From Candidatus Krumholzibacteriia bacterium (lineage in GTDB: Bacteria; Krumholzibacteriota; Krumholzibacteriia; Krumholzibacteriales; Krumholzibacteriaceae), in assembly GCA_023131975.1 (NCBI GenBank), contig JAGLYV010000119.1, positions 1-36,118 on the forward strand: a stretch of DNA of 36,118 nt. Direction: 5' to 3'. The notes beneath the pieces were generated by a model that saw only the letters and a program-made list of their open reading frames with translations, made no database searches and was not told the origin of the DNA. How positions within the stretch are numbered: the first letter of the stretch is position 1; every line of letters starts with the position of its first letter. Both the position numbers and the translations under genes were made by a program. Shown in pieces: positions 1 to 16,127 of this stretch.

Positions 1-164
1 ATGATCAGGTACTGGACCGAGCTTCCCGGCTCAAAAGAGACCGTTTCCAGAGACACGCCCGGTATCAGAAAATCTATGTCTCCCGAGAGCAGGGCCGAGG
101 GAACAAGGAGAAGGGCAGCACACAAAGATACCATGACTGCCGCGGTAGATTTACGTGCTCTCAT
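1..164 (-). CDS. Exported protein, N-terminal fragment (runs off window)
   Basis: Only the first 54 codons are inside the window. The ATG at 164 has GGAG about nine bases upstream and overlaps the last 14 bases of the preceding heme-lipoprotein gene, so the two are translationally coupled in one operon. The translated start is a basic n-region (MRARKS) followed by a hydrophobic core (VMVSLCAALLLVPSALLSG), a clear Sec-type signal peptide or signal anchor. The visible mature part (DIDFLIPGVSLETVSFEPGSSVQYLI) shows no motif I recognise. The coupling suggests an envelope protein working with the upstream gene, but this is inference. A second in-frame ATG at 134 would shorten the n-region and lacks as good a ribosome site. 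Confidence 0.6.
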   Translation of the reverse strand, partial: MRARKSTAAVMVSLCAALLLVPSALLSGDIDFLIPGVSLETVSFEPGSSVQYLI

Positions 165-1533
165 CATGCAGCTCCGTTCCGGACGAATCGGCGCCCACGC
201 AATGATGGATATGTTTCATCATCTCCTCGTAATCAAAATCGGGGGTCCATTCCGGCGTATGGCACCGTCTGCACGACTTTCTGGCGCCTGCGGCATAGCT
301 GCCGTCCCTCCTGTGGATAGTGCCGGGACCGTGACAGGCCTCACACTGCACTCCTCTCAGATTGGTTGCGCCTCTCTCCTCGGATTTTACGGAATACCCG
401 CTGAAATGACCGTATCCGACCGTATGACAGGCCATGCAGCTCGGATCATCTTCTTTGCCGGCAACGGTGAGCCTCGTAAAGGCCCTGAAATGTGGAGTAG
501 TCATAAATTCCGACATGATATCGAAATGGCACCTGGCACAGGTCTCCATCCCCAGGTACCTTTCCCGTATCCTGCCGGTGACCGGATCACGCGAAAGAAA
601 TTCACTGATACTCATCTCTCTCAGTCTCGCGCCCTCGCTGATGCTGAAATCTTTCATCAACGCGGCTATCTCAGGATCCCGGGGCATCGATCTCTTCAGT
701 TCTATCAGCACAGTGTCGGTCAAAGCCGGTTTTCCCGACTCATCGAAACTGATCCCGGCCATTCCTATGGCCTTGCCTTTTTCGCCGGCGAAAAGTACCG
801 GTATACCAAACTCTTCGAATATGCCACCGAGTGTATCCGCGCAGTCCCCACTGACCGTCTGCCCCTTCGCGGCGTGCCCCCTGATGACCAGATCTATCCC
901 ATCAAGGGCGGTGATCACTTCCCGGAGTTTCTCTTTCCTCATATGAGCCAGGAGGATCGTGTAGTCGGTCTCCTTCTCGAGCTCTTCCATCACGAGCAGA
1001 CCCTCTGTCACTGGATCGCGGATCTCGAGATCTCCCTCATCGGCAGGACGCTCAGAGAGCAGGGCCATTATCCCTATCCTCGTCCCGTGTACTTCCTTTA
1101 TGACCGCAGGCGGAAAAAGCCTCTCTCCCTCTCTGTACAGATTCGCGCATATCACGGGAAGACCATTGGCAGCGTCTTCCAGAATGGCCCTCAATCCGTA
1201 AGAAAGTTCCTTTTCACCCACGGCTACCGCGTCATAACCGAGTTCTATCATCATCGACGACAAAAATCGGCTGCGGTACATCTCGGCTATCCCTGACTTC
1301 GCGTAGAAATCCCCTGCCGACAGCAGAAGAAGCTGCGGATCGGATACTCTCTGCGATTTTATCTCGGCAGCCCGCCGGGCCAGCCCTCCGGAAGACCGGT
1401 CGCCTCACCCGGAGGGAACGAGTCTTCCCTGATCGTCTCCGGTGAAGAGGATCCTGAACGACTCTTTCTCCGAGCATCCGGATAACGTGAGCAGAAGCGC
1501 GAGGACAATTGATATTCCAATGATGGTCTTCAT
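151..1533 (-). CDS. Lipoprotein: 5'-nucleotidase/metallophosphatase-like domain plus tetraheme cytochrome c, with in-frame UGA (possible selenoprotein)
   Basis: The frame reads from ATG 1533 (AGGAAAG upstream) to TAA 151, 460 codons, with a single TGA at 1405-1407 (residue 43). Residues 1-20 form a lipoprotein signal with lipobox LSGC (Cys20). Residues about 26-290 resemble the 5'-nucleotidase/metallophosphatase fold: FTGDDQGRLVP, then GGLARRA, LLLLSAGDF, and VGEKELSYG where a typical enzyme has GNHEFDYG, so metal ligands look degenerate. The C-terminal third has four CxxCH heme motifs near residues 332, 366, 397 and 421 (CARCH, CMACH, CEACH, CRRCH), like cytochrome c554-type multiheme proteins. 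Family members I remember have P-C-G-C-x5-GG; here it is P-S-G-UGA-x5-GG, so the UGA falls exactly on the second Cys. Either selenocysteine is inserted or the gene is broken by a nonsense change. No frameshift is needed. It overlaps the next gene by 14 bases. Confidence 0.75.
1366..1407 (-). promoter_or_regulatory. In-frame UGA with SECIS-like hairpin
   Basis: The UGA at 1407-1405 is followed, within the coding sequence, by a potential stem-loop: GCCC(28-base offset)-GGC-GGGC with the GGC apical loop at +29 to +31 after the UGA, extended below by GGC/GCC pairs (1385-1366). Known bacterial SECIS elements have a small loop with a G in its first two positions, at roughly 16-37 bases from the UGA, so geometry fits. 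A second short hairpin CCGG-UCUU-CCGG lies closer to the UGA. GC-rich sequence forms such stems by chance, so this is suggestive only. Confidence 0.4.
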
Positions 1534-1639: not shown

Positions 1640-1936
1640 CTACTTGTTGGCTACGCGTCCCTTCAGGGACTTGCCGGCTACAAAAGCGGGGAATTTTGTC
1701 GCTTGGATCGTGATGGTCTCACCCGTCTGCGGGTTACGTCCCAAACGTTTTTTGCGCTTGCGCTGTACGAAAGTACCGAATCCTGTGACCTGGACTCTTC
1801 TTCCGGCTGCTACCTCGGTGGCAATAATGCCTTCCTTCGGAGCCGTGCTGAAAATCGCGTCGACTGCTGAGCGCGCATCCTTCATCGTCAGTCCGGTTTT
1901 CTTGGCGACCTTTTCGGTCATTTCAGTCTTGTTCAT
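1640..1936 (-). CDS. hup: HU-family DNA-binding protein
   Basis: A 98-residue protein of the HU/IHF family, which forms dimers that bind and bend DNA and compact the nucleoid. The sequence has the usual N-terminal helices (MNKTEMTEKVAKKTGLTMKDARSAVDAI), the GFGTF turn near residue 52, the basic arm RKRKKRLGRNPQTGETI with the conserved RNPQTGE, the tip proline region (ATKFPAFVAGKSLK) and a short C-terminal helix. Length is normal. The lysine-rich KRKKR before the RNP motif is slightly more basic than in many homologues. The start is fixed by a near-perfect AGGAGGTG seven bases upstream. It is a single-gene transcript, with a consensus promoter upstream and an intrinsic terminator downstream. 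HU rather than IHF is inferred from the general sequence. Confidence 0.95.
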   Translation of the reverse strand: MNKTEMTEKVAKKTGLTMKDARSAVDAIFSTAPKEGIIATEVAAGRRVQVTGFGTFVQRKRKKRLGRNPQTGETITIQATKFPAFVAGKSLKGRVANK

Positions 1937-12037: not shown

Positions 12038-13588
12038 CTATCTGGGAAGCAAGGTGATACAGGGGACTATGTTCTCCTCGAGAGATATCCCCCCATGCTG
12101 AAACGTTCCCTGGTACTGTCTTTCGTATTCATGAAAGCGGGTCGGGTATACAAAATAGTAGTTCTCTTTAGCGATGATATAATTCTTCGATGGAGACTCC
12201 GCGGGCAGCCTGTAGTCCAGGGGGTTGCGGATCATCAGGGTCTGCTTCGGATCACCATTGATATTCTCTCCGAACTTGTACCTGAGATTGCTCGATGTCT
12301 CCCTGTTACCGTGTACCAGGCTCGCCTTCTGACCGAGTACGGAACCATGGTCCGTGGTTATTACCGCGACGGCCTCATGCTTGGATATCTGTTTGAGGAT
12401 CTCGTACAGGGCGGAGTGGGTGAACCATGACCGCATCAACGACCGGAAGGCCCTTTCGTCCGGCGCGATCTCCTGAAGGATCTCGCTCTGGCTCCTGCCG
12501 TGAGCCAGGATATCAAGAAAATTGAATACCATTGCGACAAAATCTATATTTCTGTAACTGTTCACCTGTTTCTTGATCTCGTTGGCCTCTTCGGTCTCGT
12601 AGATCTTGATATACTTGTTCGAAAGATTTCCGAATCCGGACAGACGGAGCTGTTCCTGCATCAATTCCTGCTCGTACCTGTTCTTGCTGAACTCGTCCCG
12701 TGACCTCTCGAGCCAGTAATCGGGATATTTTTTCTGTATATCGAGAGGGTACAATCCCGAGAATATCGAGTTCCTCGCGTATGGAGTGGCAGTCGGCACG
12801 ATAGCGAAATAGCTGTCCCTCTGAATAGTAAAATACGGCGTGAGCAGATCCTCTATTGTCAGCCACTGATCCAGCCTCATGCAGTCGATGACGATAAAAT
12901 AGACTTTCTTTTTTTCCCTGAGATGTGGAAAGACAAACTGCCTGAAGACATCCGGGCTCATGTACGGCTTGTCGTCCGAATGGATCCAGTCGCGGTAGTT
13001 CTCTTCGAAATAGCTTCCGAACTCGAAATTGCATTTCTTCCTCAGATCCATATGGATCTGGTCCATACCAGTCGCGTTGAATTTGTCGAATTCTATGTCC
13101 CACTGGGAAAGATCGAAATGTATCTGGGTCCATTCTTTCCAGTCCGGACGGGAGGAGACCTTCTCGTCTATACGGCTGAATACATGAAGGTAGTCCTTGC
13201 TGACCGCGCCCTCCTGTATCTTGTGAGCCTCAAGCAATCGTTTGACCGCGGAGAATATCTGCAGGGGATTGATCGGCTTGAGAAGATAGTCGTCTATCTT
13301 CATACCGATCGCCTGTTCCATCAGGCCTTCCTCTTCGTTCTTGGTGATCATTATCACCGGTATACCCGCCACTATCTCCTTGATCTCCTGAAGGGTCTCG
13401 AGTCCGCTTTTGCCGGGCATCGTCTCGTCGAGCAGCACGAGGTCGAAGATTTCCCGGTTCAGGGCCTTGATCGCCTCGTCTCCACTGGAGACCCCCGTTA
13501 CCGAGTATCCCTTATCCTTGAGAAAAATCAGATGGGACCGAAGCATATCTATCTCATCGTCGACCCACAGTATTTTCTTTTCCTTCAA
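12038..13588 (-). CDS. porX: PorX-like response regulator with PglZ/alkaline-phosphatase-type effector domain
   Basis: In Bacteroidota PorX is a response regulator tied to type IX secretion, whose output is a zinc-dependent PglZ phosphatase-like domain rather than a DNA-binding domain. This 516-residue protein matches in architecture and length. Residues 1-120 are a CheY-like receiver (VDDE at 9-12, phospho-acceptor Asp54 in VLLDETMPG, Thr in MITKN, Lys in LLKP). Residues about 190-510 have alkaline-phosphatase superfamily signatures: FIVIDCMRLDQW, IVPTATPYARNSIFSGLYP (candidate nucleophile Thr), AVITTDHGSVLG and a late FQHGGISLEENIVP. The TTG 13588 start has GGGAAG/GAG upstream. It lies 21 bases after the histidine kinase gene, its likely sensor. 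No type IX secretion structural gene is in view, so the regulated process here is unknown. Confidence 0.85.
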   Translation of the reverse strand: MKEKKILWVDDEIDMLRSHLIFLKDKGYSVTGVSSGDEAIKALNREIFDLVLLDETMPGKSGLETLQEIKEIVAGIPVIMITKNEEEGLMEQAIGMKIDDYLLKPINPLQIFSAVKRLLEAHKIQEGAVSKDYLHVFSRIDEKVSSRPDWKEWTQIHFDLSQWDIEFDKFNATGMDQIHMDLRKKCNFEFGSYFEENYRDWIHSDDKPYMSPDVFRQFVFPHLREKKKVYFIVIDCMRLDQWLTIEDLLTPYFTIQRDSYFAIVPTATPYARNSIFSGLYPLDIQKKYPDYWLERSRDEFSKNRYEQELMQEQLRLSGFGNLSNKYIKIYETEEANEIKKQVNSYRNIDFVAMVFNFLDILAHGRSQSEILQEIAPDERAFRSLMRSWFTHSALYEILKQISKHEAVAVITTDHGSVLGQKASLVHGNRETSSNLRYKFGENINGDPKQTLMIRNPLDYRLPAESPSKNYIIAKENYYFVYPTRFHEYERQYQGTFQHGGISLEENIVPCITLLPR

Positions 13589-13609: not shown

Positions 13610-14848
13610 TCAGTCAACGGGAAAGGTCATCAGGAATTCAGTGCCCCTGTCAGGCTGAGTGTGGATGATCCTGATCGAACCGCCGTGGATCTCTTCCACG
13701 ATCCTTTTTACGAGAGCCAGACCCAGCCCCCATCCTCGCTTCTTCGTCGTGATCCCTGGATCGAACGCCCTTCTCCTCAGTCCGGCAGTCATACCTTTAC
13801 CATTATCAGAAAACCTGATCTCGATATGATTTTCGCTCGTGTTCATTACAGCCTTGATATGTATCTTTCCTTCCCTGCCAGCAATAGCGTCGAGAGAATT
13901 TTTTATAAGGTTCTCGAAGACCCAGCCAAGAAGGTCGGTGCTGCATCTGACAAGAGGCAACTCCTCTGCGTCCAGGTCGATGGTCGATTCGATCTTCAAT
14001 GAGGGACGTCTTCTTTCAAAATAGTCGACTGTCTCCCTGATGATGGCCACCATCTCCTGGTACTCAAGATCAGGCGCCGAGCCGATCTTTCCGAACCTCG
14101 ACGATATCCTGCTGAGCCTGTCCACATCGGCCTGAGCCTCGATCACCGCGCTCGACAGGCTTTCCGGCGCTCCTGCCTTGTCAGCCTGTTCCCTGATTAT
14201 GGCGAGCCAGCCCATTATCGAGGAAAGCGGGGTGCCCAGTTGATGGGCCGTCTCCTTTGCCATCCCCACCCAGATAGAACGTTGCTCGCCCTGCTTCATC
14301 GTCCTGAACCCGAGAAAACCGAACAGAAGAAAGATGACCAGTACGGCGAACTGGATGTACGGAGCATACGCAAGCTCTCTGGTCAGACGGGAATGACCGT
14401 AATGGATGATCAGGGAATATCCGGTCCCCTCGACGACGACCGGCCGGTTGATCCTGTCGAACTCCTTTGACATCCTGTATACGCTTTCCAGAACGGGGTC
14501 GTCAGGATGTTCCGGGTCGAAATCGATCCCCCGGGTATAGTCCTCGTCGCCTCCCATCTCTATCCCGATCCCGTTCCATATCAGGGGACGGCCCTCGGTG
14601 TCGGTGAGGATATAGGGAAGGTCGATCGCGGTCTGTATCTCCCTGAAGAAATCCTGGCGAACCTGATCCTCCGCCTCTTCCAGCGTGATCCCGACAAAAC
14701 GGGAAAACAGCTGGGTCGTACTTTCGGACTGCTCCTTCATCCTTTTGAGCAGGCTGTTGTTGTGCAGAATGGCCCCGGCCACGAATATCACCGTGCCGGC
14801 TATGAAATAGACCTTGAGAAGAAACGGAAGATTCCTGGGAATTCTCAT
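13610..14848 (-). CDS. Membrane sensor histidine kinase (likely partner of the PorX-like regulator)
   Basis: A 412-residue HisKA/HATPase kinase. TM1 is near residues 9-28 (LLKVYFIAGTVIFVAGAIL). About 150 residues of presumed periplasmic sensor region follow, with no recognised fold. TM2 (YIQFAVLVIFLLFGFLGF) is near 170-188. Next come the H-box AKETAHQLGTPLSSIMGWL, N-box FENLIKNSLDAIAG, G1 SDNGKGMTAG and G2 WGLGLALVKRIVEEIHGGSI. The AKETAHQLGTPLSS form of the H-box is common in Bacteroidota kinases. ATG 14848 is preceded by TTGAGG and starts seven bases after the serS stop; a TTG at 14866 has no ribosome site. Pairing with the downstream porX-like gene is inferred from adjacency. PorY itself is often encoded away from porX, so orthology to PorY is unproven. 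Confidence 0.9.
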   Translation of the reverse strand: MRIPRNLPFLLKVYFIAGTVIFVAGAILHNNSLLKRMKEQSESTTQLFSRFVGITLEEAEDQVRQDFFREIQTAIDLPYILTDTEGRPLIWNGIGIEMGGDEDYTRGIDFDPEHPDDPVLESVYRMSKEFDRINRPVVVEGTGYSLIIHYGHSRLTRELAYAPYIQFAVLVIFLLFGFLGFRTMKQGEQRSIWVGMAKETAHQLGTPLSSIMGWLAIIREQADKAGAPESLSSAVIEAQADVDRLSRISSRFGKIGSAPDLEYQEMVAIIRETVDYFERRRPSLKIESTIDLDAEELPLVRCSTDLLGWVFENLIKNSLDAIAGREGKIHIKAVMNTSENHIEIRFSDNGKGMTAGLRRRAFDPGITTKKRGWGLGLALVKRIVEEIHGGSIRIIHTQPDRGTEFLMTFPVD

Positions 14849-14855
14849 CTTATCA

Positions 14856-16127
14856 TCATGCCTCAAGATATTCGATACCGCCCATAAACGGTATCAGTGC
14901 GGAAGGTATCCGGACCTTGCCGGTCGGAGTCTGGTTCATCTCGAGTATCGTCGCGATGACCCTCGGCAGGGCGAGTCCGGAACCGTTCAGTGTATGTACG
15001 AATTCAGGTTTTGCTCTCTTTTCTCTCCTGAGCTTTATTCCCGCCCTCCTGGCCTGGAAATCCTCAAAATTGCTGCAGGAAGACACCTCGAGCCATTTCT
15101 CCACTCCGGGAGCCCACGTCTCTATATCGTAACATTTGGCAGCGGCAAAACTGAGGTCCCCCGTACAGAGCTCTATCACCCGATAGGGTATGTCGAGTAC
15201 TTCGAGGACCTCGCAGGCGTCGCCGAGAAGCACTTCGAGATCGCTGTAGGAATTCTCGGGCAGGGCGTACCTCACCATCTCTACCTTGTCGAACTGATGT
15301 ACCCTTGTCATCCCTCTTGTATCCTGTCCATAACTTCCCGCCTCTCTCCGGAAGCACGGAGTATAGGCGGTAAACTTCATCGGAAGCATGTCCCCTTCAA
15401 GAATAGTATCCCTGTACATATTCGTTACCGGTACTTCAGCGGTGGGGATGAGAAAAAAATCGTCCCTCTCACAGTGGTACATGTCATCCGCCATCTTGGG
15501 AAGCTGGCCCGTACCGACCATCGAAGCACGGTTGACCATGAAGGGTACCCAGAGTTCCTCGTACCCCTGCTTCCTGTGAATATCCAGGAAGAGATTGATC
15601 AGAGCCCTCGTAAGCAGTGCTCCGTCCCCCCGCATGACAACGAACCCGCGCCCCGAGACCTTTGCTCCGGCAGCAAGGTCGAGTATCCCCAGCTTTTCCC
15701 CTATTTCCCAGTGGGACAGCGGTTTTTCAGGCATCTCGGGGATCTCTCCCCAGCTTTTCACCACGGGGTTGTCTTCGGCCCCTTTTCCATACGGAACCGA
15801 TTCATGGGGAAGATTGGGCATGGCCAGGGCCAGGTTATCTATCTCTTCCGATATCGATTTAAGAGCCTCGTCCACTTCACGGATCCTGATAGACGTAGCC
15901 TTCATACCTGCTATGATCGGGGCCGCGTCCTTCTTTTCTTTTTTCAGTCTCGATATCTCATGTGATGCGTCATTTCTTTCAGCCTTGAGCTTTTCGGTCT
16001 CCTGAATAAGGTCGCGCATCTCTTCGTCTTTTGCCAGAAAAGCGTCCACGTCAAAATCGACGTGCTTACCCGCGATTCCCTTGCGGACCCTCTCCGGGTC
16101 CTTTCTTACCAGTTTTCTGTCAAGCAT
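14856..16127 (-). CDS. serS: Seryl-tRNA synthetase
   Basis: Class II aminoacyl-tRNA synthetase (423 aa) charging tRNA-Ser. It starts MLDRKLVRKDPERVRKGIAGK, has the long N-terminal helical hairpin that binds the tRNA variable arm (residues about 30-100), motif 1 around VPFMVNRASMVGTGQLPK, motif 2 FRREAGSYGQDTRGMTRVHQFDKVE near 265-290, the LEVSSCSNFEDFQARR serine-site segment, and motif 3 NGSGLALPRVIATILEMNQTPTGKVRIP near 385. Length is normal. The 27-base gap to the HemC-like gene has no room for a T-box, so no sign of tRNA-dependent control. It is linked to the histidine kinase gene downstream by seven bases, likely by read-through. Confidence 0.97.
   Translation of the reverse strand: MLDRKLVRKDPERVRKGIAGKHVDFDVDAFLAKDEEMRDLIQETEKLKAERNDASHEISRLKKEKKDAAPIIAGMKATSIRIREVDEALKSISEEIDNLALAMPNLPHESVPYGKGAEDNPVVKSWGEIPEMPEKPLSHWEIGEKLGILDLAAGAKVSGRGFVVMRGDGALLTRALINLFLDIHRKQGYEELWVPFMVNRASMVGTGQLPKMADDMYHCERDDFFLIPTAEVPVTNMYRDTILEGDMLPMKFTAYTPCFRREAGSYGQDTRGMTRVHQFDKVEMVRYALPENSYSDLEVLLGDACEVLEVLDIPYRVIELCTGDLSFAAAKCYDIETWAPGVEKWLEVSSCSNFEDFQARRAGIKLRREKRAKPEFVHTLNGSGLALPRVIATILEMNQTPTGKVRIPSALIPFMGGIEYLEA

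Follow-up and report, generated by a model that had tools for sequence, protein, structure and literature searches.

A gene on the reverse strand of the window (the whole 36,118-nucleotide stretch of Krumholzibacteriia DNA analyzed here) encodes what is, judging from its sequence, an exported lipoprotein selenoprotein in which a 5'-nucleotidase-like domain is joined to a tetraheme domain of the cytochrome c554 type. The decoding of its in-frame UGA (codon 43) as selenocysteine (Sec) is strongly supported by the presence of the Sec machinery, by the UGA shared with homologues, and by a covarying SECIS hairpin. The protein most likely functions as a redox enzyme rather than a phosphatase. The explanation as a whole, in which Sec43 would be the center of a tetraheme-coupled redox enzyme whose partner thiol has moved, is assigned a probability of about 0.8. 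The gene and its product comprise the following features:

151..1533 (-): gene for the UshA-like selenoprotein, with 460 codons and a TAA stop, UGA codon 43 as Sec (translation with TGA as U)
1474..1485 (-): lipobox LSGC, residues 17-20, read from the translation
700..1458 (-): domain of the calcineurin-like / 5'-nucleotidase type whose metal site is degenerate (PDB profile, Foldseek)
1405..1407 (-): in-frame TGA (predicted Sec), codon 43, shared at that codon by homologues
1147..1149 (-): Cys129 codon (ICANLY), clade-invariant
841..843 (-): codon of Cys231; the loop that carries it is longer only in this same-order clade
526..540 (-): heme motif 1, CARCH, residues 332-336, invariant columns (PF13435)
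424..438 (-): heme motif 2, CMACH, residues 366-370, invariant columns
331..345 (-): heme motif 3, CEACH, residues 397-401, invariant columns
259..273 (-): heme motif 4, CRRCH, residues 421-425, invariant columns

Apart from the TGA at 1407-1405, the frame 1533..151 (-) is free of internal stops, in agreement with the initial annotation, which had described it as open from the lipoprotein signal to the four-heme C-terminus; the residues around the UGA (LVPSG-U-GDRSSGGLARRAAE) are also as given there. That TGA serves as a normal stop in the neighboring genes is borne out by 18 of the 29 open reading frames counted in the window. The lipobox Cys20 is kept in 95% of the aligned clade members. In a profile search, the N-terminal domain matches 5'-nucleotidases of the PDB with an E-value of 3e-43, and Foldseek matches it to CD73 and UshA (AlphaFold model of the protein, pLDDT 87.9); its match to PF00149 stays below the cut-off. 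The C-terminal tetraheme domain scores 42.3 bits against the cytochrome c554 family (PF13435; cut-off 20.8).

The UGA is conserved throughout the close relatives of the protein. An alignment of homologues has TGA at the position of codon 43 in all same-order orthologues found (24/24; 44-100% identity) and in 53 further family members of the set that was read. When genome contigs were searched with this protein alone, a distant homologue from Vagococcus was the only match. The claim that relatives have Cys at this site holds for distant paralogues, one of which is encoded in the source genome (Cys in a CGC residue motif), but not for the near relatives, which mostly have UGA. Likewise, the PCGC motif named there exists in the outer family, but its first Cys is missing throughout the same-order clade, which had been overlooked. 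The residues G42, G44, G49, G50, R53, and R54, which flank the UGA, do not vary within the clade. A comparison of the two closest genomes gives a dN/dS of 0.20 ahead of the UGA and of 0.08 for codons +14 to +200, indicating that selection acts on the two sides as on a single protein.

Downstream of the UGA lies a hairpin that was evaluated by folding, pair counts, bSECIS limits, and energies:

1366..1385 (-): hairpin of the bacterial SECIS type, with GGC (1376..1374) as its loop

It extends from +20 to +39 after the UGA, and the GGC loop begins at +29, leaving 28 nt between UGA and loop. The hairpin with a G-rich three-base loop noted initially is therefore real, but the 29 bases given as its distance refer to the start of the loop and not to that of the hairpin. 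With its loop of GGC, a 6-bp stem (5-8 bp across the clade), and a spacing of 28, it conforms to the published bSECIS model, which allows loops of 3-9 nt, stems of 4-16 bp, a G in the first two loop positions, a spacing of 16-37 nt, and a minimum free energy of at most -7.5 (PMC13188914). The energy is -12.6 kcal/mol with flanks and -5.9 for the bare 6-bp hairpin. A strict bare-hairpin rule is passed by 20 of the 24 clade members, as opposed to 2.9% of the TGA triplets in the window.

Among codon shuffles of the window sequence, the hairpin of the window gene alone is no stronger than the controls (p 0.31). Pairing in the same-order clade amounts to 95.8%, and in five sequences a wobble pair shows a compensatory exchange of G-C for A-U. 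In a set of 75 distinct UGA genes, 90.3% of the cells are paired, and there are 39 double changes. Slid versions of the hairpin are 32-50% paired, and genes with a Cys codon are 42.9% paired at those columns (L090, counted among the Cys members in the pairing table, in fact has the UGA and is shifted by one codon in the alignment, which does not affect the conclusion). In same-residue comparisons, the stem codons differ in 23% and the flanking codons in 62-71%. All 24 clade members use CGG for the first Arg of the hairpin, whereas CGG makes up about one-fifth of the Arg codons elsewhere in these genes. Judging from these patterns, the hairpin clearly exceeds chance across the family, though not in the window sequence alone.

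A check of the source genome for sel genes, as the initial annotation had proposed, revealed selA, selB, and selD together with a tRNA-Sec with the anticodon UCA (68 bits), all with matches that exceed the curated cut-offs. Among the 24 same-order genomes that carry the gene, 19 have a tRNA-Sec at an E-value of 1e-9 or better. The remaining five all possess selB, and in three of them a tRNA-Sec scores just over the family cut-off; two of these weak matches are truncated, and that of G014 is only marginal. In the same-order MAGs G014, G018, and G021, the gene and selB are present and a clear tRNA-Sec was not found. In two genomes of the same genus (G009 and G015), the only tRNA-Sec match is a truncated one of 52 bits that covers positions 9-83 of 91, although selB is intact there, as is the UGA gene; their tRNA-Sec may be unusual in form.

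The same evidence bears on other readings of the UGA. Although the assembly is fragmented (171 contigs) and errors are possible in principle, a nonsense TGA in a pseudogene or a miscalled Cys codon (TGC/TGT) is vanishingly improbable, as the TGA recurs in the 24 same-order genomes and in 53 further genes, purifying selection acts on both sides of it, and the frame contains no other stop; this reading is refuted by the conservation of the codon. An ATG-started open reading frame of 376 amino acids (1281..151) does follow the UGA, as expected if a 42-residue lipopeptide ended at a true stop and translation restarted to give a separate heme protein. The product of such a restart would have no signal peptide, yet c-type hemes need attachment outside the cytoplasm. 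Moreover, strand 1 of the domain precedes the UGA, the invariant residues lie on both sides of it, and conservation of the hairpin is limited to genes with the UGA, all of which renders a restart very unlikely.

If a suppressor or a changed code placed a different amino acid at the UGA, the codon would be translated as well, and a conserved frame alone does not discriminate between this case and Sec. However, the frequent use of TGA as a stop in the window, the tRNA-Sec(UCA) with SelA, SelB, and SelD, the conserved SECIS-type hairpin, and the Cys at this site in distant homologues leave it an extremely small probability. Both the restart after a true stop and the changed code were rejected on conservation, SECIS covariation, and the normal TGA stops. 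In the favored explanation, by contrast, the SECIS hairpin (+20 to +39) would direct the decoding of UGA-43 by SelB and tRNA-Sec.

The metal site of the N-terminal domain is only partly preserved. Four metal-site residues of 5'-nucleotidases (D33, D75, H197, and H220) are kept without variation across the aligned clade, where E107 takes the place of a ligand Asn in 21/21 of the members. The His of the DxH motif and the catalytic Asn-His (GNHE) of 5'-nucleotidases are lost in the window protein, so that the residue set of CD73/UshA enzymes (DxH, GD, GNHE, H, GH) is incomplete. Some more distant members (e.g., L072 and L068) have lost further ligands and kept the UGA. The losses in the metal site, together with the fused tetraheme domain, make redox chemistry at Sec43 likelier than hydrolysis. 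In the proposed mechanism, Sec43, located in the loop that follows the first strand of the metal site, would react with the substrate, and electrons would pass to or from the hemes of the tetraheme domain.

It is less likely that Sec43 is a metal ligand or a structural residue in an active metallohydrolase and that the hemes serve another purpose, a reading that would agree with the metallophosphoesterase fold, with the retained residues (including E107), which could bind one metal, and with the affiliation of the hydrolase SoxB with the same superfamily. It is opposed by the absence of the His of DxH and of the catalytic Asn-His, by the persistence of the UGA in other members such as L072 and L068 despite their additional ligand losses, and by two features that point to redox work, the fusion with a tetraheme domain and the relatives' CxU motif. 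The combination of a selenium center and four hemes in one exported protein, which occurs in nearly every searched genome of the phylum, makes the function of UshA-like selenoproteins approachable.

Sec is usually paired in function with a nearby Cys. In a tree of 88 proteins, the 24 same-order sequences form a single clade (support 100/100) beside relatives that bear the PCGU motif, and in none of them is the residue two positions before Sec (U-2) a Cys (0/24; A, S, F, Y, or G instead). Outside the heme motifs and the lipobox, the clade has two invariant cysteines. Cys129 (24/24) is present also in the nearest sister group, whereas Cys231 (24/24), which is located in a loop that is about 8 residues longer than in the relatives, is found in 0/30 of the other aligned members at the aligned column. 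The loss of the U-2 Cys and the appearance of Cys231 both map to one branch of the tree, so that their association counts as a single event only. The pattern suggests a move of the partner thiol from U-2 to Cys231, which, perhaps with Cys129, would be the likely replacement for the lost PCGU thiol as the partner of Sec43, a weaker proposal than that of the redox role. It is conceivable, though doubtful, that the redox pair was rebuilt order-wide: the Cys of CxU would have been dropped for the remote Cys231, so that in a former nucleotidase Sec and a distant Cys form a couple connected with four hemes. A clade with a variable residue in place of the U-2 Cys but a constant Sec represents a natural test of the purpose of the Cys in CxU.

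The source genome encodes additional UshA-like proteins. One of them (L112; C115:14103-14975, +) has an in-frame UGA (YREPCGUKKDKYTGMARWASYI), an N-terminal membrane anchor, and no hemes, and scores only 109 bits against the NCBIfam model NF041198. Related UGA genes (L113-L128) are present in at least 15 same-family genomes, and the group may represent a separate selenoprotein subfamily that has not been modeled. Another (L103; C94:88409-89281) is a Cys-form protein (SCGC) without hemes. The source genome thus holds solo-Sec, Cys-Sec, and Cys-Cys versions of one fold.

The selenoprotein gene has conserved neighbors on both sides:

1640..1936 (-): HU/IHF-family DNA-binding protein (PF00216), conserved upstream neighbor
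1..167 (-): overlapping downstream gene for an exported protein of no known family, start only, cut by the contig end (translation)

The HU-family gene, itself preceded by an LptD-like gene, lies before the selenoprotein gene in all same-order loci that were read. The gene for the exported protein (DIDFLIPGVSLETVSF) follows in most of them, including L016, L017, L019, and L020, and its copy in L019 has no matches in Pfam and NCBIfam. Elsewhere in the window, a response regulator receiver domain is fused to a PglZ domain (12038-13588, -), and a histidine kinase gene (13610-14866) adjoins.

UshA-like selenoproteins of the CxU type (COG0737; PMC2398784, PMC13188914) date back at least to 2008 (PMC2398784). 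The initial annotation of a possible new selenoprotein is strongly supported with respect to Sec insertion but not with respect to novelty, as the kind is known and is covered by NF041198 (UshA-like (seleno)protein, motif PCGU). The window protein matches this model over its full length, including both the UshA-like and c554 domains, in two stretches, the best of which reaches the profile end at 519 (E 2e-62); the score of 211.5 bits, however, is below the cut-off of 275. The same is true for three clade mates (206, 216, and 186.5 bits), whereas the class-level relatives L047 and L056 score above it (284 and 296 bits). The failure in the defining features of NF041198 (PSGU instead of PCGU / CxU in the window protein) places it, on sequence grounds, in a divergent sister branch of the UshA-like (CxU) selenoproteins and not in a new family. 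A literature search on the PCGU model name, Krumholzibacteria selenoproteins, and multiheme selenoproteins yielded nothing on this branch; only the branch and its altered cysteine pattern look new. The current model scores the same-order clade below its cut-off, and a gene finder that takes UGA for a stop would truncate the protein at codon 42 or place its start at an ATG further downstream.

The branch shares with NF041198 the two-part architecture, the in-frame UGA at the same place, and the SECIS downstream. It differs in having PSGU, PAGU, AFGU, PYGU, or AGGU, in the longer loop with the invariant Cys231, and in its scores (187-216 vs. 275 among the clade members tested). The likeness to the UshA-like selenoprotein family 2 (NF049981; CxxU; PMC13188914) is weak and confined to the N-terminal part (E 1.6e-9; 37.6 bits, below the cut-off of 140), and the motif differs. 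CD73, UshA, and SoxB have the fold of the N-terminal domain in common with the window protein, but the match stops before their C-terminal domain; the window protein carries hemes in addition and no longer has the catalytic Asn-His. The tetraheme domain is that of the cytochrome c554 family, in this case C-terminal and fused to an UshA-like domain. ExtKL of Geobacter (NF040886) is also a selenoprotein with c-type hemes (PMC13188914); it probably corresponds to the Geobacter cytochrome cluster with five N-terminal CXXCH motifs and a C-terminal part without known relatives (PMC1914089).
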